The notes under the pieces were generated by a model, which saw nothing but the letters and a program-made list of their open reading frames with translations, did no database searches and had not been told where the DNA came from. DNA of 41,617 nt from a virus, in the IMG/VR virus record IMGVR_UViG_3300045997_000241, positions 1 to 41,617 of that record. One strand, 5' to 3'. A program made the translations under genes and the position numbers. Of this stretch, positions 158 to 40,198 are shown piece after piece; position 1 is the first letter of the stretch, and every line of letters starts with the position of its first letter.

Positions 158-189
158 ATTATAACACAAGGTTGCCTAAAAATAAACAA
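158..189 (-). promoter_or_regulatory. Leftward early promoter P1
   Basis: On the minus strand a TATAAT (158-163), preceded by TGT (extended -10), lies exactly 14 nt after the block TTGTTTATTTTT (178-189). The same block and spacing occur at four other leftward gene starts in this window. It sits 30 bases upstream of the ATG at 128. Inferred to drive the small early genes that, if the genome is circular, continue from the right end of the window. Confidence 0.75.
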
Positions 190-881: not shown

Positions 882-913
882 TGGTATATACTTGGATCAT
901 TTGTTGGTATAAT
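882..913 (+). promoter_or_regulatory. Rightward late promoter P2 (terminase), probably leaderless
   Basis: TGGTATATACTT (882-893), 14 nt, then TATAAT (908-913) preceded by TGG (extended -10). The same arrangement with a near-identical upstream block (CGGTATATTCTT) lies before the tail sheath gene. The -10 box ends only six bases before the ATG at 920, so transcription would start at or next to the start codon. Confidence 0.65.
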
Positions 914-6767: not shown

Positions 6768-6799
6768 AAGTATATAAAAAATCAACTACTTGATATAAT
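6768..6799 (+). promoter_or_regulatory. Rightward late promoter P3 (protease/scaffold, capsid)
   Basis: AAGTATATAAAA (6768-6779), 14 nt, TATAAT (6794-6799), in the 93-base gap before the head protease. It follows the same GT-N-T-A plus 14 nt architecture as the other promoters here. The -10 region is embedded in a 34-base palindrome (6784-6817), so a dimeric regulator could bind over it. Confidence 0.6.
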
Positions 6800-8785: not shown

Positions 8786-8788
8786 CTG

Positions 8789-8823
8789 TTGTCGGTGGTT
8801 TCCCACCGACAATTTTTGTTTTG
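8789..8823 (+). terminator. Rho-independent terminator or processing hairpin between cement and capsid genes
   Basis: A perfect 10-bp stem, TTGTCGGTGG (8789-8798) with CCACCGACAA (8803-8812), loop TTTC, followed by TTTTTGTTTTG. The capsid start codon lies about 20 bases further on with no visible promoter in between. The hairpin must therefore be leaky, be antiterminated, or act as a 5' stabiliser of the capsid mRNA. Confidence 0.85.
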
Positions 8824-8844: not shown

Positions 8845-9798
8845 ATGTTTGAAAGGTTTGTTAATTTGGACGCGCGCGAGAGCATCTTTTTTGCACGCGA
8901 GCTTGAGCACGTAAAAAGTGCGACGTATGACATTCTGTATCCTGAATTAAAGATGCAGACGTTTATTCCGGTGTCTTACGAGGCCGGTCCCGCGGCCGAG
9001 GCCATCATTTATCAGCAGTTCGGTGCAATTGGAATTGCCAAGGTGATAAGCAATTACGGTGACGACCTTCCGCGTGTTGACGTGGTAGCCGCGGAGTTTC
9101 CAATTCCAGTGCGCACAATCGGCGATTCGTATGGATACAACGTTCAGGAAATACGGGCAAGCGCTGCCACAAACAAAAATCTTCCAGTGAAAAAGGCGGC
9201 CGCGGCACGACGGGCGATTGAGAAAAAAATCGACGATATCGCGCTGTCAGCTCGTCCAACTGATGGCGTGAACGCCGGGCTGTGTGGACTTCTTTATCAT
9301 GCCAACACCACAAAGGGCACCGTGGCGACGCGCGGTGGGCACGTGACTTGGGCAGACAAAACACCGACTGAAATCCTGGCCGATATGAACGCGGCTGTTT
9401 CCGACATGATCACCCTGACAAAGGGCGTGGAAATTCCGGATAGCATGCTGCTGCCGATTGACCAGTGGTCGAAGGTAAGTACCTCGCCGCTACAGGCCGG
9501 CAGTGACACCACGATCCTTCAGTTTTTCTTGAAAAATAACCCGTCGATCAAAAATGTCGATTGGCTTGCCCAGCTGAAGGACGTCAACCCAGTACCGTCC
9601 ACCGGCGTGGCCGCAAATACGAACTGCATGGTTGTGTACAAGCGTGACCCGATGAAATTGACGCTTGAGATACCAGCCCCGTTTGAGCAGCTTGATCCGC
9701 AGGCTGATGGTCTTGAGTATGTTGTGCCTTGCCTCGCACGCTGTGCCGGTGTTTTGATCTACTACCCATTGTCTGTGGCCGTGTACGAAGGAATTTAG
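8845..9798 (+). CDS. Major capsid protein, DUF2184 family
   Basis: The main shell protein, 317 residues, HK97-type fold expected. The N-terminal ARELEHVKSATYDILYPELK, the mid segment PIPVRTIGDSYGYNVQEIRA, and the C-terminal CLARCAGVLIYYPLSVAVYE match DUF2184 capsid proteins. The ATG at 8845 has an AAGGAG site six bases upstream; the slightly earlier alternative start at 8830 lacks one. The gene is framed by two strong intrinsic hairpins, so its transcript may be a discrete stable unit. It lies in the canonical order protease, cement, capsid. Confidence 0.9.
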   Translation: MFERFVNLDARESIFFARELEHVKSATYDILYPELKMQTFIPVSYEAGPAAEAIIYQQFGAIGIAKVISNYGDDLPRVDVVAAEFPIPVRTIGDSYGYNVQEIRASAATNKNLPVKKAAAARRAIEKKIDDIALSARPTDGVNAGLCGLLYHANTTKGTVATRGGHVTWADKTPTEILADMNAAVSDMITLTKGVEIPDSMLLPIDQWSKVSTSPLQAGSDTTILQFFLKNNPSIKNVDWLAQLKDVNPVPSTGVAANTNCMVVYKRDPMKLTLEIPAPFEQLDPQADGLEYVVPCLARCAGVLIYYPLSVAVYEGI

Positions 9799-9824: not shown

Positions 9825-9856
9825 GACGGGTAATTGAAAGATTACCCGTCTTTTTT
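9825..9856 (+). terminator. Rho-independent terminator after the capsid gene
   Basis: A perfect 10-bp stem, GACGGGTAAT (9825-9834) with ATTACCCGTC (9841-9850), loop TGAAAG, followed by six Ts. It ends ten bases before the next ATG at 9867, whose Shine-Dalgarno GGAGGTGA begins directly after the T run. Confidence 0.88.
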
Positions 9857-11917: not shown

Positions 11918-11949
11918 CGGTATATTCTTGTAAGTATTTATGTTACAAT
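11918..11949 (+). promoter_or_regulatory. Rightward late promoter P4 (tail operon)
   Basis: CGGTATATTCTT (11918-11929), 14 nt, TACAAT (11944-11949) preceded by TGT (extended -10). The upstream block is nearly identical to that of promoter P2. It overlaps an AT-rich inverted repeat (TTACA ... TGTAA). The sheath gene follows with an AAAGGAGTG ribosome site, so this mRNA has a short normal leader. Confidence 0.65.
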
Positions 11950-20294: not shown

Positions 20295-20326
20295 ATGTGT
20301 TTAATAATTTAAGTCGTTGTTATAAT
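20295..20326 (+). promoter_or_regulatory. Rightward late promoter P5 (spike), probably leaderless
   Basis: ATGTGTTTAATA (20295-20306), 14 nt, TATAAT (20321-20326) preceded by TGT (extended -10). The -10 box ends five bases before the ATG at 20332. It lies in a 47-base gap inside the baseplate operon, with no ribosome site before the ATG. Confidence 0.6.
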
Positions 20327-24822: not shown

Positions 24823-26481
24823 TCATTCAAAAAATATCCGCCAATTCGATTGTATAAGGCTTTCTGAAAGCGTTCTTTTTCCACGAACGGTCTCAAAGAC
24901 GCGTTCATCGACCGTTCCTTTTGTTATCAGGTCGACATACAGGCAGGGCCTTGTTTGACCAATCCGGTGAAATCTTTTTTCAACCTGATTTCTCGGCTCC
25001 GCGTCAAAGTCGCTGCAGAATGAAATCATATTTGTGATGGCCGTCAAGTTTAAACCATAGGCCCCAGTGTGATTGGTTATAAAGAAACGCACATTGTCGT
25101 TATGTTGAATTTCTGACACGGTCTCAAGTCGTTGCTCATGTGTCGTATCTCCAAAATACGTGCGAACTGAGTCGGCGCCATACATGTCGCTCAGGGCCTT
25201 TTGCGCGATGCGAATGCTGTCACGGAAGACCGCGTAGATTAAAACCTTCCCACGCATCTCCTCTGTCACTTCTATCATAGCCTCTGCGCGATGACTTGCA
25301 ATGTCATGGACCAAGCCCTGGTCATCCTTAACGAACCCGCAGACCACTTGTTGGAGACGCAAAAGTCGCGTCAAAACCATGTTGGCGGTAACCAGGGTTT
25401 GGTCATTTAGAAACGTAAGTGACTCCTCCTTTAAGTCTTTATATATCCGGGCCTGCTCGTCCGTCATGTGGACGCTGTGTGTCATGTATGTTTTTTCAGG
25501 AAGATCGAGGCAATCCTCACTTTTTACAACGAAGCAAAATTTGTTTATTATGGCCTTAAATTCATCCAAGTTTCGATAACCCACAATTTTATTGATTTGA
25601 CCAAGCATGAGTTGATACAACCGGTCAATATAATAGCTGTCCTTTGTTACCGAACTAAGAAGGTCGAGCCTTTCCTTCACCTTTTTAAAGTTATAGGCCT
25701 TTGTAAAAATGTCAACCACCTCAAGCAATATTGACTGCTCAGCGTAACCAAGTTTTGCCTTAAGTTGCGCAGCGAGGGCCTTTATTTGTGGAAGATTTTT
25801 TACGCGTTGATCAATCCCTACCATGGTATATATTGGTGCAAGGTCCGCGAATTGTGCTTTGAAGGCGTAATATGACGGATACCCAGAGCAACCTTTCTTT
25901 AGGAATTCAAGTTGTGCCCAAATATCAAGTGGTTTGTTGTCTATCGGGCTTCCAGTCAAAAATCGACGGGCGATTGAGACGTCGCGAAGCTTGAATGCCG
26001 CCTTTGTTCTTCCAGATTGCGGATTTCTTATCGTAGAACTTTCATCGATGGCCGCCAATGTCTTGTTTTGCCTTGTAAATTTGTAAAAAATGGCAAAGGC
26101 GCGTTTTGAGTTCAGCGATTCGATATTTGCCGTTATTATTTTTAATTTATCCGTGGCCTTTGCCTCTGCGAATGAAACGAAGGCCTCGAATTTTTTACCG
26201 CTAAGCTTTGAGCTCCATTCAGCAAGTTCGTATGGTGCGTCCGTCGACATGTGCAACGGAATGTGCTCACTTTTCCATGTTTGGTACGAACCGCTATTGC
26301 CAAAAATAATCAAGGCGTTTATGTGTCCGTTTACAAACATGTGCGCCGCCACGTCAAGCAACATCTTGCTTTTTCCGGTGCCCATGTCACACACATTGCC
26401 AAAATACACCTTGTCAGCCGTCAACTGGTAATTTTGAAGTTGATGGGTCATTGGTGTCATTTTAAATGAGATTTTTTTCAT
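24823..26481 (-). CDS. SNF2-like superfamily 2 DNA helicase/translocase
   Basis: A 552-residue ATP-dependent DNA translocase. Motif I is CDMGTGKSKM (residues 31-40), motif II AAIDESS (about 143-149), motif III RRFLTGSPIDN, and motif VI QVEKRFHRIGQTRP with the DERVFE tail typical of SNF2 proteins. An about 100-residue helical insertion lies between the two RecA lobes. The start has AAAGGACG upstream. It is the last gene of the early block and lies nine bases after a UvrD-like helicase. Such phage SNF2 proteins are usually thought to act in replication or recombination; the exact role is unknown. Confidence 0.88.
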   Translation of the reverse strand: MKKISFKMTPMTHQLQNYQLTADKVYFGNVCDMGTGKSKMLLDVAAHMFVNGHINALIIFGNSGSYQTWKSEHIPLHMSTDAPYELAEWSSKLSGKKFEAFVSFAEAKATDKLKIITANIESLNSKRAFAIFYKFTRQNKTLAAIDESSTIRNPQSGRTKAAFKLRDVSIARRFLTGSPIDNKPLDIWAQLEFLKKGCSGYPSYYAFKAQFADLAPIYTMVGIDQRVKNLPQIKALAAQLKAKLGYAEQSILLEVVDIFTKAYNFKKVKERLDLLSSVTKDSYYIDRLYQLMLGQINKIVGYRNLDEFKAIINKFCFVVKSEDCLDLPEKTYMTHSVHMTDEQARIYKDLKEESLTFLNDQTLVTANMVLTRLLRLQQVVCGFVKDDQGLVHDIASHRAEAMIEVTEEMRGKVLIYAVFRDSIRIAQKALSDMYGADSVRTYFGDTTHEQRLETVSEIQHNDNVRFFITNHTGAYGLNLTAITNMISFCSDFDAEPRNQVEKRFHRIGQTRPCLYVDLITKGTVDERVFETVRGKRTLSESLIQSNWRIFFE

Positions 26482-26490
26482 GGTCGTCCT

Positions 26491-27942
26491 TTATAAAACA
26501 TAGTGATTTGCCGTTTTTGGCTGTAGAATGAAGAGATTTTTTTTCGCCCGCGTGGCCCCAACGTAATACACCCTGGCCTCGTCGTCTGGATTTTTTATAT
26601 AACCCTCGTACGACCTTAGCGACATGTCGAGCGACAGCACGACATTTTCACTCTCGCTTCCTTTTGAGCCGTGGATTGTGTTAACATGTATTCTTGGGGC
26701 CGTGATAAAACTTTCATTTCGTCGGCGACAGGCCCGATAATATTCGCTCTCGTCAAGTGGCAAAAGATCAAGCGCGTCATACCAGGGTTTTTCAAGTCGT
26801 CGCTTGTCGATGTTTTCGACGTTGTTGATCATTTTTCGTGACATGAACTTGTTTATGAAATAGACCTCGTCCTTTGTGACTGGTCTTCCAGCCCTTAAGC
26901 TTTCCCAGGCAAGTGAGGCCTTCACCCCGGGATTGTCACGAACATCACCATATACGCTTTTGTAAACAAAACCGCAAAGCTTTAAATAATCGATGACCTC
27001 TTTTATTTGGAAGTTGTTTCTCATCAAAATTAGCCACTGTCCAGTGGCCATGTCAATGTCCTCAATTGAGCGGACAACCTCCACCTTTCCAGTCTCCTTT
27101 GTTGGCTTGAAAACTTTTTTATGCCGACCTTTTACCTTTGTGATTATTTGGTCGGCCTGGGCCTTTATTGATTTAGGCAATCTGTAGCTTTGGTTTAGCA
27201 CCCTTGTCGCGGCCACTTGTTTTGTCAATGCGGTAAAGTGCTCAACCGCCGCCCCTGACCACCTAAAGATGGCCTGATCATCATCACCGGCAATGATAAC
27301 CTTTGGCGTCACACTAATAAGACGTTCCAATATTTTCCACTGAAGAAGACACAGGTCCTGGGCCTCGTCGATTATCAGCAAATCAAGGCTTGGCGGCATT
27401 CCTTGATCATAGAATTGGACAAGCATGTCGGTATAGTCAACAAGCAAGTTGGCCTTTTTATATTGCCTAAGGCCGTCAACCACGAAGTTAAGTTCGAGCC
27501 ACGTAACGTCACTTTGCTGGTCCTCCCACGTTGTTCGAATATCTTGCATCTTAAGGCGTGAAAGCGACTCTATAAAAATAATTTGGTCACCTAAGTTCAT
27601 TTCAAAGGTGGCCAAGTCTTGCCGCTGAATACCGGTGATTGGCACGCCAAGCTGCTTTCCAAGGTCCCGATAGTGATTACGTTGCATCACCTCATGCGTG
27701 CTTAGTCCCAATTGAAAAAATGCCATTGAATGTGTCGTCTTATAGAACTGTAATTGACGCCGCGATAGGTCAAATTTATCCATTGTTCGCGAGGCGGCCT
27801 CCTCAACGGCCTTTTTTGTAAACGACATGAAGCCGATCCGTTCAGGCGTCAGTCCTTCTTTTAGACCAGCTTCAACTGCGTTTATTAGAGTGGTAGTTTT
27901 CCCGGTGCCAGGTGGGCCCAAATATAGTGTCGCGTTATCCAT
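26491..27942 (-). CDS. UvrD/Rep-like superfamily 1 DNA helicase
   Basis: A 483-residue helicase. Motif I is LGPPGTGKTTT (residues 8-18), Ia SFTKKAVEEAASR, II IIDEAQD (190-196), III AGDDDQAIFRWSGA (218-231), IV NQSYRLP (250-256), V TIHGSKGSESENVVL and VI YYVGATRAKKNLFI. It is complete but shorter than bacterial UvrD because the 1B/2B domains are reduced, as often in phages. It overlaps the small upstream gene by eight bases. Expected to unwind DNA during replication or repair. Confidence 0.93.
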   Translation of the reverse strand: MDNATLYLGPPGTGKTTTLINAVEAGLKEGLTPERIGFMSFTKKAVEEAASRTMDKFDLSRRQLQFYKTTHSMAFFQLGLSTHEVMQRNHYRDLGKQLGVPITGIQRQDLATFEMNLGDQIIFIESLSRLKMQDIRTTWEDQQSDVTWLELNFVVDGLRQYKKANLLVDYTDMLVQFYDQGMPPSLDLLIIDEAQDLCLLQWKILERLISVTPKVIIAGDDDQAIFRWSGAAVEHFTALTKQVAATRVLNQSYRLPKSIKAQADQIITKVKGRHKKVFKPTKETGKVEVVRSIEDIDMATGQWLILMRNNFQIKEVIDYLKLCGFVYKSVYGDVRDNPGVKASLAWESLRAGRPVTKDEVYFINKFMSRKMINNVENIDKRRLEKPWYDALDLLPLDESEYYRACRRRNESFITAPRIHVNTIHGSKGSESENVVLSLDMSLRSYEGYIKNPDDEARVYYVGATRAKKNLFILQPKTANHYVL

Positions 27943-28135
27943 CAGTGCTTCTCCTGCCGATGCTTTCTGCCAACCAAGGAAAGCAGATCATTGCGGCGTC
28001 TGATACCTCTAATTTGCCACCTTTTATAAATTGAATTACTTGTCGTTGTCCTTGCTCTGAACAGCTTGTGACGCAGGCAAGCTTGCCATCGACATATACC
28101 ATAAAATTTGGAATTATGCACAAGACGTCAATCAT
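27935..28135 (-). CDS. Small protein between primase and helicase, unknown function
   Basis: A 66-residue protein with a strong AGGAGG site seven bases before ATG. It has four cysteines and a central VTSCSEQGQRQVIQFIKGGK. It overlaps the UvrD-like gene start by eight bases and follows the primase by ten bases. It may be a replication accessory factor by context only. Confidence 0.65.
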   Translation of the reverse strand: MIDVLCIIPNFMVYVDGKLACVTSCSEQGQRQVIQFIKGGKLEVSDAAMICFPWLAESIGRRSTDG

Positions 28136-28145
28136 GTGTTACCTC

Positions 28146-29663
28146 CTAAAAATAAGTTGCTGGCTCGTCAATCTCCGGTTCAAGGACGCTGTCAGGTTCT
28201 GAGAACTGAGGAATGCTCCAGATATTTACGTTTTTACCCCGTATTTTCATTAGCTCGGCCTCGCCACCAATATCCTTTAAAATAGCCGTTATTTTGTTGG
28301 ATGTAAAGGCCTTGAATTTTTTCCTATCAAGAAAGGCAAGAAAGTCCGATAGCTTGAAATACGTTCGCCCTTGACTGGTCCACGGCTTTCCAATAAGAAG
28401 TTCGTCCACCTTTTTTGCCTTTACAAGTGAGATGCAGTATGTCTCAAGCAATTCCTTTAATTGACCTGATGGTGATGAATCCTCCGTGGCCTCAATAATC
28501 GAAACCTTGTCCAAAAGGGCCTTTATAATGTTATGCCAAACCCCAGGTTTTACGATGGGCGTAAGAACGTTCAATGAGTCAAGGCAAATTTTTTGAAAAC
28601 GCATTTGGTTTTGAAGGTCATTTGTCTCAAGTTCAAGGCGACCACCGCCATCCACGTCAACAAACCAAATAGGTGGGTTGGTGTCATACTTTGTAAGGGC
28701 GGTAAGCACTGGCATGTCAAGAAGGGCACCGACGCCAAATTTACGCGTGCGACAAAGCCCTGAATTGCAGTGCGGCTTTAACGGGGCCTTGCTGCATGAG
28801 TAGTCATATTCTTTTTTCTTCAGACTTTTTACGACACCCTCCACCTCATTGGACAAGAGCGGGGGGTCAAAAAACTTTATGTTGAAGTCGTTCAGCAATT
28901 GCGCCCAGCTGTCGGGGGATTGTTTCTTTAAATACACGCCCAAATTATATAGGCCGTCATTCCTGGTACCCGCCACAAATCCCCTGGTAACAAGATATTG
29001 AAGGCACGGAGGTCCATCAGACAGGTCGGGAAGCAGGGCCACGGTGAAGGCCTCGAACTCCGCCATTGTTTTGCGACTTGCCAGGGCGCGCTCGACGAAC
29101 TGCTTAATGGATAGGCCCTCATTATTTTTATCCAACGCAAACCTAACGGTATTCTCAGCATCAAAATAAGGCATGTTTATCCATTGCCCAATGTCGCCGC
29201 GCTCCGATAACACCTCGTTTTGCCTTGGATAAATCTCGGAGCCGGCAAAGCCAAGAAGCGCGGCGTAGTGACTTAGTTTTTGACGAACAAGGCTCGCAGG
29301 CGTGGCCTCACTAAGAAATGTGTAGAGGTGCAAACCACCGGACTTTGTCTTGCATGGAATGAGCGGCAGCTCGTTATCCTCAATCAATTTTAGTGTTGGA
29401 ACGTAGTCAAGGTCATAAACGTCAACGTCAATGGCCCCAAAAAAGCACATTGAGTCGTCACGAATCGGAACTATGCCAATGCCGGTTCGCCCGGCAAGAT
29501 GGTCCTCCCATAATTGCTCAGTTACCGGCGCATGCTTGGTAATGGCCTCACCAAGAATTTTATTTTTATCTGTTTTGGATGACCTAACAAGCGAATAGGT
29601 GCCGTAGGCTCGGTCCAATCCCTTGAATAGCGTCATCATGTCAGCTACGAATAAATTACCCAC
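28146..29663 (-). CDS. Archaeo-eukaryotic-type primase (AEP/TOTE-like primase with PriCT)
   Basis: A 505-residue protein. Catalytic acids lie in FFGAIDVDVYD (D79, D81), the substrate motif is KSGGLHLYTF (about 107-116), and the third AEP motif region is DIGQWINMPYFD (about 157-168). The C-terminal part has a PriCT-like segment, TRNDGLYNLGVYLKKQ, and a cysteine cluster around residues 290-304 (CSKAPLKPHCNSGLC). It would make primers for the phage polymerase, possibly with polymerase activity itself. The start is GTG at 29663 with AAAAGGGG upstream. The C-terminal 180 residues are unassigned. Confidence 0.82.
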   Translation of the reverse strand: MGNLFVADMMTLFKGLDRAYGTYSLVRSSKTDKNKILGEAITKHAPVTEQLWEDHLAGRTGIGIVPIRDDSMCFFGAIDVDVYDLDYVPTLKLIEDNELPLIPCKTKSGGLHLYTFLSEATPASLVRQKLSHYAALLGFAGSEIYPRQNEVLSERGDIGQWINMPYFDAENTVRFALDKNNEGLSIKQFVERALASRKTMAEFEAFTVALLPDLSDGPPCLQYLVTRGFVAGTRNDGLYNLGVYLKKQSPDSWAQLLNDFNIKFFDPPLLSNEVEGVVKSLKKKEYDYSCSKAPLKPHCNSGLCRTRKFGVGALLDMPVLTALTKYDTNPPIWFVDVDGGGRLELETNDLQNQMRFQKICLDSLNVLTPIVKPGVWHNIIKALLDKVSIIEATEDSSPSGQLKELLETYCISLVKAKKVDELLIGKPWTSQGRTYFKLSDFLAFLDRKKFKAFTSNKITAILKDIGGEAELMKIRGKNVNIWSIPQFSEPDSVLEPEIDEPATYF

Positions 29664-29688
29664 GCCAGCCCCTTTTGCACGTATGAAG

Positions 29689-29721
29689 ACAAATAAAGGA
29701 CCCCATAAGTTTCAGGGGTCC
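29689..29721 (-). terminator. Intrinsic terminator between SSB-like and primase genes
   Basis: On the minus strand GGACCCC (29721-29715), a ten-base loop and GGGGTCC (29705-29699) are followed by TTTATTTG. It lies directly downstream of the SSB-like gene. No promoter is seen before the primase GTG, so it probably acts as a partial attenuator, giving more SSB than primase. Confidence 0.7.
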
Positions 29722-29738
29722 AGCATAGACTGCCTCAA

Positions 29739-30581
29739 TTAGAAGTGGTTGTCGTCGGTGACAGGAGGAGCGGCGTCCTCGAACGTGTCAGACGGCGGGG
29801 TTACTTTCACAAGGCCTTTATTCACCTCGGCGCAAAAAGCACGCCCGGCAAGATATAGCTCAGGTTTCGTGACTGGAATTGGGTCCGAAATTTTGTAATT
29901 TTGGAATGTGTTTCCGTTGCGCTCTTCCATTTCTGCTGAAATATTGTACACGTGGCTGTACGACGCCGGCGTGGCCATTGTCTTATTCGGCCCAATAGGT
30001 AACTTCAGGTCCGTCATTCTGCTTATCCATTTTCTTGATTTTTTAAGCTGCGTCCGTGTCATTGAAATAACCACGCGGGACGTGGAGCCGTCCTTATTTA
30101 TCAGCAGGCAGTAGTGGTAGGCGGTTTGAACAAGCACGTTTCCATTTGGGAGAATATCCATATTCTTGTCATTGCGCTTCGTTGTTGCCATCAACTCGTC
30201 GGTCGCGTGATGCGCCACAAAACCACCACCCTTTGAACGCTCGACCCACTCAACCCACGCCCGATTAAAGGCGCATGGCAGCACATTGATGCTTTCGTAA
30301 ATGTCGCCTGTGACGGTGTTGTATAGCAAGCCCTCACGCGCCCCGTGGACGGCAGTGGCCCCGCGAAGTTGCGGTGAAAGTGCTTGAAGAAGTGTGATAA
30401 ACGGCACTGCCATGTCCGCAGCCGTCACGTTTTCAAACCCACCACCAACATCCTGGGCCAACACCTCTGCAATGGCTGTTGTTTCAGTGGTGGCCAAAGT
30501 TTTTGTAGTCGATACGGCCACGGCCGTTTGCGACTGTTTTGCTCCTTGTGCGGCGTTTGCCGCGTCATTCTTTTTTGCCAT
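29739..30581 (-). CDS. Probable single-stranded-DNA-binding protein with acidic tail
   Basis: A 280-residue protein. Residues 1-45 are Ala/Thr/Gln-rich and disordered. The central about 200 residues contain the conserved-looking ALSPQLRGATAVHGAREGLL, YNTVTGDIYESINVLPCAF and QLKKSRKWISRMTDLKL. The C-terminus is TDDNHF after DTFEDAAPP, resembling the acidic, phenylalanine-ended tail of SSB proteins such as T7 gp2.5. Its place beside the primase, with its own terminator for higher expression, agrees. The fold is not proven by sequence alone. Confidence 0.6.
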   Translation of the reverse strand: MAKKNDAANAAQGAKQSQTAVAVSTTKTLATTETTAIAEVLAQDVGGGFENVTAADMAVPFITLLQALSPQLRGATAVHGAREGLLYNTVTGDIYESINVLPCAFNRAWVEWVERSKGGGFVAHHATDELMATTKRNDKNMDILPNGNVLVQTAYHYCLLINKDGSTSRVVISMTRTQLKKSRKWISRMTDLKLPIGPNKTMATPASYSHVYNISAEMEERNGNTFQNYKISDPIPVTKPELYLAGRAFCAEVNKGLVKVTPPSDTFEDAAPPVTDDNHF

Positions 30582-30591
30582 TCCTATCTCC

Positions 30592-31182
30592 TTATTTTAA
30601 GATGATTGTTTCACGGTACTTGTATACAGAGAAAAGGTCCTGCGGAAAACTTGTGTTTTCAACAATTTGCTCCCTAACAAGCGCCTTTAATGTTTGCGGA
30701 TGCACCGATTTTTTCTCGGTAAATTTCAAGCGTAGCTTCTTTAAGAGCGTGGTTAACTCCTTTGAGTGGGCAAGGTCGTCTTTTTTTAACTCGACGTCAA
30801 TTTTGTTTTTAATCACGGTATCGAGCTTGTTCTTTGCCAGCCAGGCAAAGCAGTCTGCCTTTTTTTCCTCCGTGATCGCCGCGTTATAGTCAGTTTTTAT
30901 GGCCACACCGGTGCCGTCACTTAGACTCACCTTGCTTAGGCCAAGCTCATCAAATAGCGTCGGGACCAAGTCGGAGCCGATATATTTGATTCTATCTGAT
31001 ATCTTTTTTGCCTCCTCGTTCAACTTTTCAAGGGCCTTTTCTGCCTCAAGTTTTTCACTGATTAGCTTTGAAATAATCCCTAATTTTTGATGAACAAGGT
31101 CGCCATCAAGCTGGCCACCAACGTCCTCGGCCAACAAGGAACTAAGCGAATTATCATCACATTGTTTGCTTGTTTTTTTCAC
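30592..31182 (-). CDS. Replication-cluster protein with coiled coil, unknown function
   Basis: A 196-residue protein, start GTG at 31182 with GAAAGGG upstream, first gene behind promoter P-L5 (31202-31233). Residues about 35-70 form a coiled coil (SEKLEAEKALEKLNEEAKKI). Residues about 75-130 have the pattern LFDELGLSKVSLSDGTGVAI, then ITEEKKADCFAWLAKNKLDT and VIKNKI, seen in phage proteins found next to SSB and recombination genes. The specific activity is unknown. Confidence 0.65.
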   Translation of the reverse strand: MKKTSKQCDDNSLSSLLAEDVGGQLDGDLVHQKLGIISKLISEKLEAEKALEKLNEEAKKISDRIKYIGSDLVPTLFDELGLSKVSLSDGTGVAIKTDYNAAITEEKKADCFAWLAKNKLDTVIKNKIDVELKKDDLAHSKELTTLLKKLRLKFTEKKSVHPQTLKALVREQIVENTSFPQDLFSVYKYRETIILK

Positions 31183-31201
31183 ATAAACCCTTTCTTTTTT
31201 A

Positions 31202-31233
31202 ATTATACCAAGTTTTACGTAATATTTAAACAG
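31202..31233 (-). promoter_or_regulatory. Leftward early promoter P-L5 (SSB/primase/helicase operon)
   Basis: Minus strand: CTGTTTAAATAT (31233-31222), 14 nt, TATAAT (31207-31202) preceded by TGG (extended -10). It precedes the GTG at 31182 by about 20 bases and follows the end of the upstream gene at 31234. Confidence 0.7.
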
Positions 31234-31542
31234 TTAAAGATCAATTCTTATCGGAAGATACATTTGCCTGTGCCGGTCCCATTGTAGCAATGCAATATTG
31301 CGCGAGACGGCACTCGCCGCGGCCACCGTTAGTCCAATAAGCACCGGTGAGCCAATCAAGACAAGATAGTCGTAATCACCGTCATAGCTGCGTAGCTCAT
31401 AGCCTAAAGTTGCCCAAACCTCTTTAAAATCAGCGCGCTTAATTGACATGTCCATGGTTGCTGGAACAAGATAGCAGAGCTGGCCAAATTCTGCCGCTGA
31501 CGATATATCAAACATAGGTTGTGCCTGCGTTATAAAGACCAT
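31234..31542 (-). CDS. Small protein of unknown function in the polymerase operon
   Basis: A 102-residue protein with GGGGGGAAT immediately before its ATG. It overlaps the VRR-NUC gene by 13 bases. It has a DYDYLVLIGSPVLIGLTVAA stretch that could be a single membrane helix or a buried beta-alpha unit, and a basic C-terminus. No family is recognised. It is the last gene of the polymerase operon, ending right at promoter P-L5. Confidence 0.6.
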   Translation of the reverse strand: MVFITQAQPMFDISSAAEFGQLCYLVPATMDMSIKRADFKEVWATLGYELRSYDGDYDYLVLIGSPVLIGLTVAAASAVSRNIALLQWDRHRQMYLPIRIDL

Positions 31543-31928
31543 ATTCCCCCCATAACTACCGCGCTCACGGCCTCACGGCCGGCAATCCGATGAACGCTTG
31601 TAACAAGTGAATACCTTTTGTGTTTATTGACGTTGGCCACCGCCCGGTGCAAATAGACCACGTCATTGTGCAAGGTCAAGACAAAAACACTTCCCTGGCC
31701 ATATACTACCCGTGCCATGTGCCACGCAATCTGCTCGGGCTCAAGCAGGCGGGTAACCAGGGATTTTGGGTCACCTACCTTGAGCTCAATCCAAGTTTCG
31801 CGGCCGTGGTCACACAGGTTCACGTCTGGGGTGCCGGCCCCTATCTTATTTTCAATGCGCAGCACGTGGCCACGTAAGATTGCATTGTCGTGTAGATAGG
31901 TCCAAAAAAGCTGCTCAGGTTTTCTCAT
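31530..31928 (-). CDS. VRR-NUC domain nuclease
   Basis: A 132-residue PD-(D/E)xK-type nuclease. The motif residues are visible: RIENKIGAGTPDVNLC (E26, P34-D35), then RETWIELKVG (E48, K50) and EPEQIAWH (Q66). VRR-NUC proteins cut branched DNA such as Holliday junctions or flaps. In phages they often accompany helicases and polymerases. The start overlaps the polymerase stop by four bases (ATGA), so it is co-translated with the polymerase. Confidence 0.88.
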   Translation of the reverse strand: MRKPEQLFWTYLHDNAILRGHVLRIENKIGAGTPDVNLCDHGRETWIELKVGDPKSLVTRLLEPEQIAWHMARVVYGQGSVFVLTLHNDVVYLHRAVANVNKHKRYSLVTSVHRIAGREAVSAVVMGGIWSL

Positions 31929-33832: not shown

Positions 33833-34039
33833 TTAACCTCCAAAGATCATGTAGACAATCAATGTTTTTGGTGGGGCTGGTACACCTTTCCGGAATTACC
33901 AATTTTTATTGCCGCTACGTTGACCTTGATTCGCAGATTGTGCCCGCACTGTGAACTGTTTATCCACGTAGTTTTACTTTAACGGTAGTCAGCACCCCCA
34001 AAAACATTGCTTTACACGGAGCAACACAACTATTTACTT
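33833..34039. other. Non-coding gap upstream of the polymerase, possible replication origin
   Basis: A 207-base stretch without a gene. It is bounded by an inverted repeat: CAATGTTTTTGG at 33860-33871 and its exact reverse complement at 33998-34009. Inside is TTATCCACG at 33960-33968, eight of nine bases of the E. coli DnaA box, plus CTACGT/ACGTAG half-sites. Placement beside the polymerase and the repeat symmetry suggest an origin or a structured leader. The evidence is suggestive only. Confidence 0.4.
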
Positions 34040-34261
34040 TCAAAACTGCGCGTATGGATCCACCGCGTCCTTGTGCGCGAGCACGTCCAGCAAGGCCTGC
34101 CGCTCCTCAACAGTGGCGCTCCCGCGCAGCTGGTCGTCATCAAACATTGTGAATAAAAAATCAGGGTGCGAGGTGTACACCTCCTCAAAAGTTGACCCTG
34201 CATACGGCCCCACCGTAAGTCTTACAGTTCTCCACGTGGCCTTTTCCTTGCCTTTACCCAT
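34040..34261 (-). CDS. Small DUF3820/exonuclease X C-terminal-like protein
   Basis: A 73-residue protein. The pattern VGPYAGSTFEEVYTSHPDFL followed by a short helix resembles the small GKYKGKTxEEVxxxxPxYL module found as DUF3820 or at the C-terminus of proofreading exonucleases. It has a basic N-terminus (MGKGKEKATWR). AGGAGG lies upstream of the ATG. It lies between dCMP deaminase and polymerase, consistent with an accessory of the replication machinery, but the role is unknown. Confidence 0.6.
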   Translation of the reverse strand: MGKGKEKATWRTVRLTVGPYAGSTFEEVYTSHPDFLFTMFDDDQLRGSATVEERQALLDVLAHKDAVDPYAQF

Positions 34262-34273
34262 AACACCTCCTTT

Positions 34274-34714: not shown

Positions 34715-34745
34715 GTTAATTCTTTCTTTTAATCCTGCATAGTTA

Positions 34746-34777
34746 ATTATATCAAAAAACATGACAAAAATAAACAA
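34746..34777 (-). promoter_or_regulatory. Leftward early promoter P-L4 (dCMP deaminase/polymerase operon)
   Basis: Minus strand: TTGTTTATTTTT (34777-34766), 14 nt, TATAAT (34751-34746). The upstream block is identical base for base to those at 178-189 and 39120-39131. It lies in the gap between the TS-family gene and dCMP deaminase. Confidence 0.75.
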
Positions 34778-34782
34778 TTATT

Positions 34783-35628
34783 TCAACAAAAAAGTTCATA
34801 TAAAAACAAACCGTCATCAACCCGGCAGATACCTTTGTCGTAGGCCAGGACCGTGGGCGTTGTGCCGTGTGACAAGCCAATCAAATAGGCCTGAAGAGAG
34901 TCATATTTTAAAAATTGATTAAGGCACAGCGGGGCGTAATCCGCCTCGCGGTCATCACCAAGCAAGTTGTAGACGTCTGACTTATCATAACCAAACGACT
35001 CTTTGTGGCAATATAGGTGTGAACTTCCGGCCGTGAGGTATAGCTTGCCAAGCCGTACATTGATGTCTAAAACGTCACGAAGAAGCAAGGCAACCCCCGC
35101 AGAGACCATTGAAAAATTAAATAGGTCGTATGGAAGGCCAAGCCATGCGTCGGATGATCGCATCGTGGCCACGCAGTTAAGCTGGCCGTCACGACAAAGC
35201 CATTGAAGACTTAGCGTGCATGGAACGTCCTTTGTGTCGTATGGCCGTTCTCGCCAAATTGTGAGCACGGCCTGGCGCGTGTGCAGGTCTTTTTTAAAGG
35301 CCTGAATAATATATGGAAGCTGCTCGATTATTTTGGGACCGTAGGCGCCAAAAAAGAAGTGACCGTCATCTGAGAAATTTGCGATTTTATTGTTGCAGTA
35401 GCCAATATCAGCCACGCGATTGCTTCCTGACAGTATCCAGCCGGCCTCCCCCATGGCAAACTTTCGACTTAGCTTGCGGCCAACCAAGGTAACAAGCGGG
35501 AAGGTCATGTCAATCATGATGGTTTTTGCAAGTTGCTCAATAATATCGTGGCCACGACAGGTGCAGCTATGCCCGTTTACCAAAATGTCCTGAATATGAT
35601 TTACGTATGTCATGTTGGTCTCAAGCAT
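34783..35628 (-). CDS. Thymidylate-synthase-family enzyme, predicted dCMP hydroxymethylase or methylase
   Basis: A 281-residue enzyme of the TS fold. The catalytic cysteine is in VPCTLSLQW (C137). The phosphate-binding RSSD (157-160) and the HLY pair (H204, Y206) match TS. The residue that in TS is the invariant asparagine of the PFN motif (E. coli N177) is aspartate here (LGLPYDLF, D168). That change is the known mark of dCMP- rather than dUMP-specific members such as T4 gp42. The histidine following the catalytic cysteine in E. coli TS is Thr here. It overlaps the kinase gene by eight bases with GGAGG upstream. The product could be 5-hydroxymethyl- or 5-methyl-dCMP. Confidence 0.82.
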   Translation of the reverse strand: MLETNMTYVNHIQDILVNGHSCTCRGHDIIEQLAKTIMIDMTFPLVTLVGRKLSRKFAMGEAGWILSGSNRVADIGYCNNKIANFSDDGHFFFGAYGPKIIEQLPYIIQAFKKDLHTRQAVLTIWRERPYDTKDVPCTLSLQWLCRDGQLNCVATMRSSDAWLGLPYDLFNFSMVSAGVALLLRDVLDINVRLGKLYLTAGSSHLYCHKESFGYDKSDVYNLLGDDREADYAPLCLNQFLKYDSLQAYLIGLSHGTTPTVLAYDKGICRVDDGLFLYELFC

Positions 35629-36646
35629 TTAAGAACCTCCGTAATTTCTCAATAAATAGTTTCTTGTATGTTGGAAAACGATTTGCCGCCTGCGGGTGTG
35701 GGAGCGGTGTATAGACAAGGTCGAAATTTTCAAGAAGCGTTACCTCGGCCTTTTCGCCAAAGACGCCTATTTTCACCTTCTCACCGTTGCGGCCTGCGTG
35801 CCAATTAAGCCATTTGCGCAGCTCGATCTTGCCAAGTCGGTGATTCATATTTATAAAATAGAGCCGATGCTCATCAATTCCCAGTTCGTCAAGCACGTGG
35901 CAAAGGTGCAGCGAGCAGGCTGCGTTTCTAAAGAAGGGCCAGGCCGGGCGATGCGTGCCCCATTTAAGATTTGGTGTGTCTCCAAGCAACAGGGTGGCGG
36001 CTTGGAAGTTACCGGCGGTTGATACGCTTGGCTCAGGATTACCCTGCAACGTATGTGAAAAATGCACGTAATCACACACCTGTTTTGCAAACGAAGGCAT
36101 GTCGTGGCCCATGGTTTGATAGTCGTATATAAACATGTCAAATCTTTTAGCAATGCCAGCGCGAATAAAGTGGCGATGGTATCCGTGATACTCATCAAGG
36201 CTTGAGGTCCCATAAATAAGTCGCTGGTACTCATCGCGAACTTCGCACATTTTATCGACGTCATGATACAATTCGCGACCACTTTCAACAAGTGACTTAA
36301 ACTGGACCCGGTAGGCAACCTCGTTTCCGGGGACGCACAAAACATACACCCCGCCAAAGCGAATCAGCATGCGGTCCAGCATGCGACCATACTCCGGCCA
36401 CTTGGGACCGCCACGATAGACCTTTGCGTAAATCATCTCAGTAAGCCACCACCGATCAAGTATGCAGGGCGTCCCAGTCTTTTCAACCTTTGACAGGGCG
36501 TGCAAGAGGGCCGCGGTGTGGTAGACAGGCATTTTGTTCTTGTGACGATATGTCATGTGGATGTATGTTGCCCCACATTGACGTTGAATTTCCCTGGCCA
36601 GGGTGGTTTTTCCGGCCCCATCCGGGCCCTCAAGCACTATTATCAT
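35621..36646 (-). CDS. Nucleoside monophosphate kinase fused to a uracil-DNA-glycosylase-like domain
   Basis: A 341-residue two-domain protein. Residues 1-195 are a thymidylate-kinase-type P-loop enzyme: LEGPDGAGKTT (5-15), ILDRWWLTEMIYAKVYRG (62-79), and a lid-like basic region. Residues about 215-341 follow the UDG superfamily layout: ATLLLGDTPNLKWG (217-230), an FINMN motif (264-268), KIGVFGEKAEVTLL (292-305), and PLPHPQAANRFPTYKKLFIE (314-333), with the HP pair of the glycosylase loop. GGAGG precedes the ATG. It sits directly before the dCMP-type TS gene, so the kinase probably acts on the modified nucleotide. The glycosylase-like domain's activity is unknown. Confidence 0.7.
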   Translation of the reverse strand: MIIVLEGPDGAGKTTLAREIQRQCGATYIHMTYRHKNKMPVYHTAALLHALSKVEKTGTPCILDRWWLTEMIYAKVYRGGPKWPEYGRMLDRMLIRFGGVYVLCVPGNEVAYRVQFKSLVESGRELYHDVDKMCEVRDEYQRLIYGTSSLDEYHGYHRHFIRAGIAKRFDMFIYDYQTMGHDMPSFAKQVCDYVHFSHTLQGNPEPSVSTAGNFQAATLLLGDTPNLKWGTHRPAWPFFRNAACSLHLCHVLDELGIDEHRLYFINMNHRLGKIELRKWLNWHAGRNGEKVKIGVFGEKAEVTLLENFDLVYTPLPHPQAANRFPTYKKLFIEKLRRFLNA

Positions 36647-36661
36647 ATGCCTCCTGTTACA

Positions 36662-37510
36662 TTATTTTGCGGTGATTATCCAAAGATTGTTTCTTGCACG
36701 ATCTGGGCAAAGCACGGCGAAGATGCAGGACAATGCGTCGTCATCGAAATATTGACCCAACGCCTCACAGGTTATTTGATGCACCTCAGCCATCGTTTTA
36801 AAATTGCTTATGTTCATGAATGTGCCGTATCTCCTTGTCCATCGCAGACCAGCCGTGTTTATCGCGTCAGACAATTCAGCGATCGTGTATTCATGGATGT
36901 GATTTTTCGCCGCACTCCCATTGAACACCGGCGTCGATAGAAAAATCCTTCCTTTTGGGGCAAGCAACTCTTTGAATATTTTAAGAAGTTTAAGGCCGTC
37001 GGCGACGCTCATGTGCTCAATAACCTCAAAGCAGGTGATTACGTCGTACCCACATTTTGAAAGTTCATTGGGGCGATCTACCACGTTGAACTTATCAAAA
37101 ATTTTTACGTCGATGTTTTGCGACGTGGGCTTTTTTGTGATCAAATTAAGGTCAACCCCGGTGTAACTTGCCGGCCTGTATGCCCCAAGGGCCGAGGTCA
37201 AAATTTTATACAGCGGCAACTCTTGCCCGCAACCCACGTCGAGGACCCGGCAACCTTTTTCGATGTGCCGCCTTACAAACGACCACCTGAAAAAATGCGC
37301 GGAATAATCACGATGAAGTGTGGCCCCATGGCCAGTACTTTTAAGCTGCGTCGTATTGAATAATCGACCATCGACCTTGACATGCCTGCCATTGTTTTCA
37401 TCGGCCTCTGGCGTTTCAACTGGCGTTTCGATCTTAAGATTGCTTGGTTGGCTGGCATTGGTCAATCGTTCTTTCCGCTTTTTTGGCAGCGGGGCCACGA
37501 ATCTATCCAT
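36662..37510 (-). CDS. SAM-dependent class I methyltransferase
   Basis: A 282-residue protein. The SAM-binding motif is CRVLDVGCGQELPLYKIL (residues 87-104), the acidic motif II is YTGVDLNL (D120), and YDVITCFEVIEHMSVADGLK carries the post-motif helix. The N-terminal 60 residues are basic and low-complexity. The start ATG at 37510 has GAGGAG; an upstream in-frame start at 37543 has none. It belongs to the Ubi/COQ-type small-molecule or RNA/base methylase group rather than a recognisable DNA-MTase class (no DPPY or PC motif). The substrate is unknown; the gene lies within the modified-nucleotide cluster. Confidence 0.8.
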   Translation of the reverse strand: MDRFVAPLPKKRKERLTNASQPSNLKIETPVETPEADENNGRHVKVDGRLFNTTQLKSTGHGATLHRDYSAHFFRWSFVRRHIEKGCRVLDVGCGQELPLYKILTSALGAYRPASYTGVDLNLITKKPTSQNIDVKIFDKFNVVDRPNELSKCGYDVITCFEVIEHMSVADGLKLLKIFKELLAPKGRIFLSTPVFNGSAAKNHIHEYTIAELSDAINTAGLRWTRRYGTFMNISNFKTMAEVHQITCEALGQYFDDDALSCIFAVLCPDRARNNLWIITAK

Positions 37511-38111
37511 CAATTTTCTCCTCTTCAAGAGATACAAGGTCATGCAGGTCAGGGGCTATCCAGCCCTCGGGTTTTACCACGTCATAGCAGGAGCCACGCT
37601 TTGATTGGCTGGCCCGTTCAACCGGCACCTTCCGCATGTTTGCCGCATGCACCCTGGCCCATGCCGTTGCGAACACCTTTGCGAAGCCGAACACTTTTAC
37701 CGTGCCAAACGCAAAATAAATGAGGTCAACCAGGGCGTCAAGGATTCCGGCCTCGTCACCCGCCTCAATTGCGTAGGCGAGCTCATCAACCTCCTCCTGA
37801 ATGCAAGTTAGACGGAAATTTGTAATATCAGTGGATATTATCAGGCCTTTCCCGTATGGAATTTTAAATTTGTCGATAAATTTATTAAGATCACCCTGAT
37901 AATTTACCGCATTTCTTCCTGAGTGACTTTTCAGATGACGAAGCACGTTTAAGATTGGCTCGGGAACAGTTTTGAAAAGCTTGTTGTCCTCGTCAACAAT
38001 AAAGAGTTCAAGCACAAGACCGTCAATCTGCTTCACAAGATTGTCGATATTTTGGGCCTTTCCTGCCAACTCATTTTCGAGTTGCTTTTTTGTCTTTTGT
38101 TTTTTTATCAT
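37503..38111 (-). CDS. MazG-like all-alpha nucleotide pyrophosphohydrolase
   Basis: A 202-residue protein. The MazG/dUTPase-type metal-binding helices are visible: IQEEVDELAYAIEAGDEAGI (E106, E107, E110) followed by LDALVDLIYFAFGTVK (D125, D129), and later AWARVHAANMRKV. The N-terminal 45 residues are coiled coil. In T4-like biology such all-alpha NTP-PPases (dCTPase/dUTPase) clear dCTP so that modified cytosine is used. That role would suit this cluster, but the nucleotide specificity cannot be read from sequence. It overlaps the methyltransferase by eight bases and its upstream gene by four. Confidence 0.78.
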   Translation of the reverse strand: MIKKQKTKKQLENELAGKAQNIDNLVKQIDGLVLELFIVDEDNKLFKTVPEPILNVLRHLKSHSGRNAVNYQGDLNKFIDKFKIPYGKGLIISTDITNFRLTCIQEEVDELAYAIEAGDEAGILDALVDLIYFAFGTVKVFGFAKVFATAWARVHAANMRKVPVERASQSKRGSCYDVVKPEGWIAPDLHDLVSLEEEKIDG

Positions 38112-38380
38112 TCCGTGTGTCCAAATGTTACAAGGTGAATATCTACCGTAAAAAATGACTTTACGTGCACGATTGGATCATCAAAGGTCTCGGTCAACAA
38201 GGCCCTCATCAGCGTGAGCGATCCGTGGTGGATGCGAAGGTCGTCCTCAATCGCCGCGTCAACCATCGCCCGCGCCTGCCTAAGCATCATGTGCGTAAGT
38301 GAGTGAACACGTGAAATCAGGCGAACCCTTCCGGCACTTTCCTCAACCGTTAATTTTGTTTTTCCAATTATGTATGTCAT
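38108..38380 (-). CDS. Small early protein of unknown function
   Basis: A 90-residue protein with GAAAGGAC upstream of ATG. The central helix is basic (LTHMMLRQARAMVDAAIEDD). It overlaps the MazG-like gene by four bases. No family is recognised. It is probably a cytoplasmic accessory protein of the nucleotide operon. Confidence 0.6.
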   Translation of the reverse strand: MTYIIGKTKLTVEESAGRVRLISRVHSLTHMMLRQARAMVDAAIEDDLRIHHGSLTLMRALLTETFDDPIVHVKSFFTVDIHLVTFGHTE

Positions 38381-38421
38381 TGTTGGTCCTTTCTATTGAG
38401 GCCACCTTGCGTGGCCAAAAA

Positions 38422-39060
38422 TCATCGTGCCATGACGCCAAGATCGACAAGCACACCGCGCCAATACAACACCACGCCCCAAATATTTCGGGAGATGAAG
38501 CCACGTTTCTGCAGCAGGTCGACGATTTCCTCACGTGTTTTCTCAACCTTACCATCATTTGCCTCGGCCTCTCTTGAAAAAATCTCAACCATGTCCTTGA
38601 CCTGCGGGGAGGCCTTTATGTTTTCAGGAATTGGAGGGGCCACCTTCAACAAGTATTTTTTGCCAGTCTTCGCTTTTGCCGCCGGCACAACCTGTTCGTC
38701 AACTTGGGCGTCGGTGTCAACGGCGTTGGCCTCTGCAACATCGCTTATTAAAGTAAGGGCCGGGCTTTCAGCCACCGAGGTCTCAATCGCTTTGGTCGGC
38801 TTTTTGGCTGACTTCTTTTCGGCGCCGGATTTCTGAAAAAGCTCCGCTGCCTTGCCTTCAAGGACCGGAAAGATTGCCTTGGCCATTTTTTCACGCGCCA
38901 CCTTGTTGAAGGTTTTTCCAAGGTACTCCTGTGAAACTTTGTTCAACTGTGAACCTGTAAACAGCTGGGCAAGAACCTCCGCCGACTCCACAACGGTGAC
39001 ATGCTCACCCTTTCCTGCCTCAAGTTTTATGGTTGCGTTGTTCAAATAAATCTTTGACAT
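38422..39060 (-). CDS. Early protein with linker and possible winged helix, unknown function
   Basis: A 212-residue protein, first gene behind promoter P-L3 with an AAAGGAG site. Residues 1-75 form an N-terminal domain (LGKTFNKVAREKMAKAIFPV). Residues about 80-150 are an Ala/Lys/Glu-rich linker. The C-terminal 65 residues (TREEIVDLLQKRGFISRNIW) look like a winged helix. It might be a DNA-binding early regulator or host-takeover protein. This is speculation beyond the visible layout. Confidence 0.6.
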   Translation of the reverse strand: MSKIYLNNATIKLEAGKGEHVTVVESAEVLAQLFTGSQLNKVSQEYLGKTFNKVAREKMAKAIFPVLEGKAAELFQKSGAEKKSAKKPTKAIETSVAESPALTLISDVAEANAVDTDAQVDEQVVPAAKAKTGKKYLLKVAPPIPENIKASPQVKDMVEIFSREAEANDGKVEKTREEIVDLLQKRGFISRNIWGVVLYWRGVLVDLGVMAR

Positions 39061-39099: not shown

Positions 39100-39131
39100 A
39101 TTCTACCACTTTTTTCACGAAAAATAAACAA
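39100..39131 (-). promoter_or_regulatory. Leftward early promoter P-L3 (nucleotide-metabolism operon)
   Basis: Minus strand: TTGTTTATTTTT (39131-39120), 14 nt, TAGAAT (39105-39100) preceded by TGG. The ATG at 39060 follows a normal leader with AAAGGAG. Expected to transcribe the genes from 39060 down to the dCMP-type TS gene. Confidence 0.72.
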
Positions 39132-39473
39132 CTATTTGGCGATCGATAGGCTAAACTCAAAAAACCCACTCGTTGGGCCAACATGATCAACCCTGTAATT
39201 ACTGGCAAGCGCCTTCTTGGTCAGCTCCCTGGCCTCATTGATATCGAGCTGCAGGCTGACACGCCGCCCAGGTGGAAAGTTCCCAATGACAAGGGCCCGC
39301 GTCTCACCAACCTCGAAGCGCAGGAAATCGAGCCCATCAGCATGCGTTAGCCAAACTGTCTTCGTCTCCACAGAGACATTTGGGCGAGTGAGGAAGGCCA
39401 TCGCCTGCCCATCCGGCCTGCCACCTTCACGAAAATTATTCGCCGCCACCCCCTCCCGAATATCTTTGCTCAT
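39132..39473 (-). CDS. Small early protein of unknown function
   Basis: A 113-residue protein, start overlapping the upstream stop by four bases (ATGA), with no strong site of its own, so it is translationally coupled. It is beta-rich (DFLRFEVGETRALVIGNFPP, RVSLQLDINEARELTKKALA) and ends next to promoter P-L3. It has a YRVDHVGPTSGFFEFSLS C-terminus. No family is recognised. Confidence 0.6.
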   Translation of the reverse strand: MSKDIREGVAANNFREGGRPDGQAMAFLTRPNVSVETKTVWLTHADGLDFLRFEVGETRALVIGNFPPGRRVSLQLDINEARELTKKALASNYRVDHVGPTSGFFEFSLSIAK

Positions 39474-39682
39474 CTGAGAGACTCGCGATGCGCAAAGTCG
39501 TCCCAGCCAGCCTCGGTGCCGTTAAATTTTGCCCCCTCGTCAAAGGCCCGACGCATCGCGGCCTCGTGCTCCATGTCCGCCTCCTCGACGTCATAGTACT
39601 CACCATCACCGACCGCACCAAATATTGGCGGACAACAGTTGCATGAAGATATAAAATCATACCGCGTTATTTTTAATTTCAC
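39470..39682 (-). CDS. Small acidic early protein with CNCC motif
   Basis: A 70-residue protein, GTG start at 39682 overlapping the upstream TGA (GTGA), with GAGGAG about 12 bases before. It has an N-terminal SSCNCCPPIFG segment that might bind a metal, and an acidic helical rest (YYDVEEADMEHEAAMRRAFD). Function unknown. Confidence 0.6.
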   Translation of the reverse strand: MKLKITRYDFISSCNCCPPIFGAVGDGEYYDVEEADMEHEAAMRRAFDEGAKFNGTEAGWDDFAHRESLR

Positions 39683-39906
39683 TTGTTACGCGACTCCTCT
39701 TGAAAGGCCTTCGGTTGAAGTTCGTGCCCGCAATCTGGGCAAAACTTGTACCCACCAAGGCATGACATGTGCACCACCTGCTCATAAGTAAGACATGTTT
39801 GACAGTCTATGATTTCTGGGTCCACTTGCACCGTCCCGGTGGCAAGGCCAGTCACGCCGATGGCCGCGATGCAAAGCAAGACAAACAGGATAAAAACAAT
39901 TACCAT
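39679..39906 (-). CDS. Membrane-anchored zinc-ribbon-like protein
   Basis: A 75-residue protein with GGAGG seven bases before the ATG. Residues 2-23 are a membrane helix (VIVFILFVLLCIAAIGVTGL). Residues about 35-65 contain CQTC, SCLGG and KFCPDCGHE, a short zinc-ribbon-like cysteine set. It is likely an inner-membrane protein with a small cytoplasmic or periplasmic zinc domain. It lies in an early operon behind promoter P-L2 after a two-TM protein. Its role is unknown; candidates are host takeover, superinfection exclusion or lysis. Confidence 0.65.
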   Translation of the reverse strand: MVIVFILFVLLCIAAIGVTGLATGTVQVDPEIIDCQTCLTYEQVVHMSCLGGYKFCPDCGHELQPKAFQEESRNK

Positions 39907-39920
39907 CTAAACCTCCAAAG

Positions 39921-40103
39921 TTATCTTCGACAGACAAGGGCCAGCAGGATAAGGCCGGCAACCAGGGCAACAAAAATCACCGTGGTGTCAATGACCACGC
40001 CGCTGAACATGCCCGCAACCTGCGAAAGCGTTCCGCCGTTTGATTCAAAAAAGCACAGCAGGCCTAAGAATATCGCGGTCAGCAGCAGGGTTACCTTTAT
40101 CAT
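39921..40103 (-). CDS. Small two-transmembrane protein, holin-like
   Basis: A 60-residue protein with AAGGAG upstream of ATG, first gene behind promoter P-L2. It has two hydrophobic helices (VTLLLTAIFLGLLCFF, residues about 4-19; VIFVALVAGLILLALVC, residues about 42-58) joined by a Gly/Ser-rich loop. It ends in Arg-Arg. The size and topology resemble small holins, but an early promoter argues against a normal late lysis role. Superinfection exclusion is equally possible. Confidence 0.6.
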   Translation of the reverse strand: MIKVTLLLTAIFLGLLCFFESNGGTLSQVAGMFSGVVIDTTVIFVALVAGLILLALVCRR

Positions 40104-40132
40104 ACTTTCTCCTTGTTAAGTGGCTATAATAT

Positions 40133-40164
40133 ATTATACCCTAAAACCACCTAAAAATACACAA
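40133..40164 (-). promoter_or_regulatory. Leftward early promoter P-L2 (membrane-protein operon)
   Basis: Minus strand: TTGTGTATTTTT (40164-40153), 14 nt, TATAAT (40138-40133). The -10 region is part of a perfect 14-base palindrome TATAATATATTATA (40125-40138). It lies 30 bases upstream of the ATG at 40103. Confidence 0.72.
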
Positions 40165-40198
40165 GAAAATTAAGGATTTGCATTTAAAATTGGGTAAT

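Follow-up and report, generated by a model that had tools for sequence, protein, structure and literature searches.

Nine candidate extended -10 promoters with a T4-early-like GTNTA element in a small Pam3-like myophage

Background

Early promoters of bacteriophage T4 carry the -35 sequence GTTTAC at positions -36 to -31 (PMC1524935) together with a TGn motif, which places them in a UP/-35/TGn/-10 class, and they are read by the E. coli sigma70 holoenzyme right after infection, before phage proteins exist (PMC2988021). The early promoters of RB49, RB43 and Aeh1 favour a G at -33 (PMC1524935). T4 middle promoters rely on a MotA box, centred at -30 and 11 to 13 nt from the -10 element (PMC1524935). 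Here we describe nine sites in a phage unrelated to T4 that combine a GTTTA-type -35 element with TGn and TATAAT, an occurrence which suggests that a strong type of promoter for host polymerase was either arrived at independently or is used in common.

Results and discussion

Genome organization

The window, i.e. the whole stretch of DNA that was analysed, is the 41,617-bp IMG/VR record IMGVR_UViG_3300045997_000241 (positions 1 to 41,617). A minus-strand ORF starting at 128 leaves the record at base 1 and resumes in frame at 41617, reaching its stop at 41422, and the genome appears to be complete and circular (or circularly permuted) because this ORF encodes a single protein over the join (1-128 and 41422-41617, minus strand). 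Rightward genes (920-24790) encode packaging, head and contractile tail functions, some of them Pam3-like. The leftward set, which extends from the join as far as 24823, includes small early ORFs and genes for nucleotide metabolism, DNA polymerase A, primase and helicases, as well as Pam3 gp32/gp33/gp34-like members. The virus is a small Pam3-like myophage with a bacterial host. Close relatives were not found, the top DNA polymerase and capsid matches having identities of about 51% and 55%, respectively. A host search by portal protein gave no result, and capsid alignment did not point to a host either, the relatives (mis-binned or prophage) coming from bins as diverse as Firmicutes, Proteobacteria and chlamydia.

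Nine sites heading nine predicted transcription units

The first-pass annotation had proposed a phage-wide class of nine promoters of one design, each comprising a 12-base block, 14 nt and TATAAT or a one-base variant, and the coordinates, strands and 12-14-6 layouts were exact for all nine. Five candidate promoters (L1 to L5) point leftward. L1 (158..189, minus strand) has the layout TTGTTTATTTTT-N14-TATAAT with a TGT extended -10, and its unit begins at the ATG at 128, behind a 23-nt leader with AAGGAG, and runs over the circular join and on through 41422, 41154 and 40614. L2 (40133..40164, minus strand; TTGTGTATTTTT-N14-TATAAT) has GGG instead of TGN and heads the unit 40103..39132, also with a 23-nt leader and AAGGAG. 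L3 (39100..39131, minus strand; TTGTTTATTTTT-N14-TAGAAT, TGG) precedes nucleotide metabolism genes (39060..34783), L4 (34746..34777, minus strand; TTGTTTATTTTT-N14-TATAAT, TGA) precedes the genes for dCMP deaminase and DNA polymerase A, and L5 (31202..31233, minus strand; CTGTTTAAATAT-N14-TATAAT, TGG) precedes a unit (31182..24823) with Pam3 gp33/gp34-like, primase and helicase genes. On the plus strand, R1 (882..913; TGGTATATACTT-N14-TATAAT, TGG) heads the terminase and portal genes, R2 (6768..6799; AAGTATATAAAA-N14-TATAAT, TGA) the head protease, cement and capsid genes, R3 (11918..11949; CGGTATATTCTT-N14-TACAAT, TGT) the tail sheath, tube and tape measure genes, and R4 (20295..20326; ATGTGTTTAATA-N14-TATAAT, TGT) the baseplate and fibre genes. 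Three leftward blocks were thus identical (158, 34746 and 39100), the -10 hexamer departed from TATAAT at 39100 and 11918 only, and TGN stood upstream of the -10 in eight of nine sites; the GTNTA element said to be common to the class was present in eight, site 20295 reading GTGTTT.

The nine units lie head to tail and cover every gene, which supports the phage-wide character of the class and gives this small, complete myophage a clean operon map. Leaders measure 13 to 36 nt and mostly contain a Shine-Dalgarno sequence. The exceptions are R1 and R4, whose ATG codons (920 and 20332) lie on the predicted +1 and have no Shine-Dalgarno sequence, so that the mRNAs starting at 920 and 20332 (plus strand) are probably leaderless. 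One basic design would serve early/replication genes and virion genes alike, unlike in T4, where middle (MotA) and late (gp55) promoters form classes of their own.

Enrichment of the motif in noncoding DNA

All nine sites are intergenic, each pointing at the next gene. The sole apparent gene overlap was at 34746, which a simple gene finder marked as half coding. However, similarity to the dCMP deaminase family sets in only around residue 19-22 of that frame, to which the ATG at 34714 corresponds; this ATG is most likely the start of the gene, and the site was counted as intergenic for that reason. The genome has 12 occurrences of GTNTA-N19-TATAAT when one hexamer mismatch is allowed, seven of them wholly in gaps, one half coding (34746) and four in coding DNA; site 20295 (GTGTTT) falls outside these strict pattern counts. 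There are accordingly eight matches in approximately 2.7 kb of noncoding DNA, where 0.38 to 0.39 would be expected from order-2 Markov sequence, versus four in approximately 39 kb of coding DNA (odds ratio 29). An equal frequency in coding DNA, which the first-pass annotation had named as evidence against a promoter class, was therefore not what was found. Spacing was likewise sharply defined: seven sites had N19, and neither N18 nor N20 occurred.

Promoter anatomy and likeness to T4 early promoters

Alignment on the -10 element revealed invariant G(-36), T(-35), T(-33), G(-14) and TA.AAT, with A(-32), T(-31) and T(-15) each present in eight of nine sites; many of the upstream regions are A/T-rich. 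The fixed distance of 14 nt reported earlier is exact as a layout but not special, since the 12-base block at whose end the count began is arbitrary; with the -35 to -30 hexamer as reference it becomes the ordinary 17-bp sigma70 spacer. These hexamers (TTTATT, TATATA, TATATT, TGTATT, TTTAAA and TGTTTA) are indeed not TTGACA, matching it in two to four of six positions, and only 31202 reaches four. As a class the sites hence fall outside canonical -35/-10 sigma70 promoters (TTGACA-like in at least 4/6, spacer of 16-18 bp), and the intergenic gaps of this genome contained no canonical TTGACA-class site (0). They do agree with extended -10 sigma70 promoters (TGn plus a TATAAT-like hexamer), having T(-15) in 8/9, G(-14) in 9/9 and no more than one hexamer mismatch. 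Because 17 bp is the standard sigma70 distance, the nine sites are read as putative extended -10 promoters whose -35 deviates in sequence but not in spacing.

The sites share with T4 early promoters a GTTTA-type element at -36 to -32, 19 nt between this element and TATAAT, the TGn motif (8/9), a location in gaps before genes, and A/T-rich upstream DNA. They differ in having T or A at -31, where T4 keeps C, and A or G at -34 in the rightward sites. By the strict T4 definition (GTTTAC at -36 to -31) the class is excluded: GTNTA is in register in eight of nine sites, but C(-31) in none. Early promoters of RB49, RB43, Aeh1 and 44RR are likewise lineage-specific variants of the -36 to -31 element, although the T at -33 that is invariant here contrasts with the G favoured in RB49, RB43 and Aeh1. 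T4 middle promoters resemble the class in combining a non-TTGACA upstream element with TATAAT, and often TGn, but their MotA box (TGCTTtA) lies 11-13 nt from the -10 whereas the element here ends 19 nt upstream, and the class does not qualify as T4 middle by box position and MotA/AsiA genes. Judged by its ranking with a T4-derived matrix (see below), the class seems to behave like T4 early promoters without strict membership.

As a control, T4 bases 1-50000 gave a GTTTA-N19-TATAAT peak (13 sites at N19), many of them with TGn. A matrix built from T4 only, on the basis of ten T4 sites picked for having GTTTAC and a TATAAT-like hexamer rather than of mapped promoters, ranked the nine sites 1, 2, 4, 5, 6, 7, 8, 13 and 15 of approximately 83,000 positions, and a canonical TTGACA/TGn matrix performed far more poorly (ranks 2 to 277). 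When only the -10 and TGn went into the matrix, all nine sites fell within ranks 1 to 17, a result nearly as good as that of the T4 matrix, from which it follows that the discriminating information lies mostly in the extended -10 and that the -35 adds a modest amount. For the same reason the -35 at these sites is credited with no more than a possible functional role.

This ranking also fits an explanation in which the -35 block is incidental, the sites in these AT-rich gaps working through the extended -10 only and owing their GTNTA likeness to the duplication of a few ancestral promoter segments. At least two promoters are duplicates, in that the 72-bp promoter and ribosome-binding-site units at 133-204 and 40108-40179 are 75% identical. 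However, spacer letters between the elements vary widely among the sites while GT.T is constant. Moreover, as the motif had been chosen in the first-pass annotation, all 4-of-5 patterns at 16 offsets were searched at 59 intergenic -10-like sites, and GT.TA at exactly this offset still came out as the winner (P = 0.009, a conservative value in that site 34746 was treated as coding there). We give an incidental block a small but real chance of being correct.

Recognition by RNA polymerase

The nine sites are probably extended -10 promoters that resemble the early ones of T4 and are used by host polymerase. Their sequence, position, orientation, enrichment and T4-like register can be read directly from the genome, and transcription is predicted to start at them. 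The simplest reader would be the unmodified host housekeeping (sigma70/sigmaA-type) RNA polymerase, with recognition probably carried by the TATAAT -10 and by TGn, contacted by sigma region 3, and with G(-36) T(-35) N(-34) T(-33) A(-32) T(-31) possibly read by sigma region 4 as a secondary anchor. Such a strong -10/TGn pair could allow the phage to compete for unmodified host polymerase, and promoters distributed along the genome would then generate five leftward (early, replication) and four rightward (virion) units, the timing of which would be set by something other than promoter class. By analogy with T4, for which the precedent is E. coli, the host sigma should suffice. What counts against this assignment is the base at -31, conserved as C in T4 and T or A here, together with the A or G at -34 in rightward sites and the TGGACA-type -35 elements of L004 and L015, which are closer to this phage in their replication module.

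The first-pass annotation had concluded from the non-TTGACA -35 that either a host sigma with different recognition or a phage factor must be involved. This does not follow, given that E. coli sigma70 reads T4 promoters with GTTTA and TGn-TATAAT; a non-TTGACA -35 is by itself no evidence for an altered sigma or a phage-encoded factor, and no exotic factor is needed because the sites closely resemble strong T4 early promoters.

The invariant -35 letters at the nine sites do exceed the strict requirements of an extended -10 promoter, and a dedicated reader is therefore conceivable. A phage activator or sigma-appropriation factor (MotA/AsiA-like, RNA polymerase-binding) could bind GTNTA in place of sigma region 4, making the class phage-specific. 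The invariance of GT.T over nine sites and the lack of TTGACA-class sites in the gaps would agree with this, as would the presence of several small unannotated early ORFs, one of which (40614-40973) looks vaguely HTH-like by eye. Set against these points, nearly all predicted proteins were searched and yielded no match to a sigma factor, RNA polymerase, MotA or AsiA; the block lies at -36 to -31 with normal spacing, unlike the MotA box at -30 (PMC1524935); and the earliest genes share the design, and their transcription has to precede the first phage protein, unless the factor is injected. Such a factor is unlikely. An AlphaFold model of the HTH-like protein was discarded (pLDDT 48). In two other sequences (L066 and L067), small ORFs near the primase are labelled "DNA-directed RNA polymerase" and "sigma-G factor", but their sequences resemble neither, and the 66-aa neighbour in the window has no family match; for these reasons no phage sigma was deduced from the labels.

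Leftward and rightward subtypes

Three of the four rightward sites have A at -34, and no leftward site (of five) does (P about 0.05 in a Fisher test calculated by hand). In addition, the palindrome TATAATATATTATA (40125..40138) covers the -10 and start region of L2, and near copies occur at R2 (6794), R3 (11944) and R4 (20321), where the -10 is extended into the palindrome. Allowing up to three mismatches, TATAATATATTATA had six matches against 0.97 expected, a number reached in none of 100 shuffles. These patterns suggest that leftward and rightward subtypes exist. Of the earlier proposal that T-rich and GGTATAT blocks could set the timing of two programmes, no more than a hint is left in the weak split at -34. 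It is quite unlikely that an unrecognised small phage protein recruits host RNA polymerase to GTNTA(T) or redirects it there, the rightward subtype with GTATAT and the TATAATATATTATA palindrome then being a late class with its own timing.

Promoters of related phages

In MW202510 (Caudoviricetes sp. ct3Et533, Manatee Spring; L220 in our set), whose primase and DNA polymerase are 42% and 37% identical to those described here, GTTTAC occurred 12 times in noncoding DNA versus 2.1 expected, and GTTTAC-N18-TAtaaT four times in gaps versus 0.18 expected. These candidate promoters have C at -31 as in T4 and are without TGn. A second relative, L013, had two such sites versus 0.08 expected. The scan of related phages that had been suggested thus recovered comparable sites in these two, but L004 and L015, which are nearer kin by replication module, use TGGACA-type -35 elements, and relatives found via DNA polymerase, capsid and Pam3 gp34 were mostly without this promoter class. 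As the -35 type differs among phages having the same replication module, promoter style does not seem to be inherited with that module; it may follow the host. A scan of IMG/VR viral contigs for exact TTGTTTATTTTT-N14-TATAAT returned 103 stretches, mostly in AT-rich contigs, of which 57 were intergenic and seven had TGN, and was set aside as mostly background.

That the host housekeeping sigma itself prefers GTNTA over TTGACA at -35, with the phage mirroring this, is very unlikely: style does differ among phages with one replication module (GTNTAT here, GTTTAC in MW202510, TGGACA in L004 and L015), a sign of possible adaptation to different hosts, but the sigma70 of E. coli favours TTGACA and T4 nevertheless has GTTTAC in that host, so that a deviating -35 does not reveal host preference.

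Other features of the genome

The replication/nucleotide module (24823-38111) is common to the podovirus MW202510, while the virion module is that of a Pam3-like myovirus here and of an unrelated podovirus in MW202510; judging from these affiliations, the two modules appear to have been combined by modular exchange. Alongside the same replication module, the noncoding gaps of L004 and L015 contain repeated putative promoters of the form CTGGACAAAA...TATAAT/TATACT. The protein encoded at 35621-36646 (minus strand) has an N-terminal P-loop (thymidylate-kinase-like) and a weak C-terminal uracil-DNA-glycosylase match, and is possibly a fusion of these two parts. Two strong hairpins of 11 pairs each (8788-8813 and 9825-9850, plus strand), resembling intrinsic terminators, bracket the gene 8845-9798, relatives of which are annotated as major capsid protein. 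Long noncoding stretches are located at 40104-40613 and 129-881, a possible origin or packaging region. CCAATGG was considered as an operator in 40104-40613 and rejected, being also found throughout coding regions. The same stretch contains imperfect direct repeats (40193-40225 and 40423-40455).
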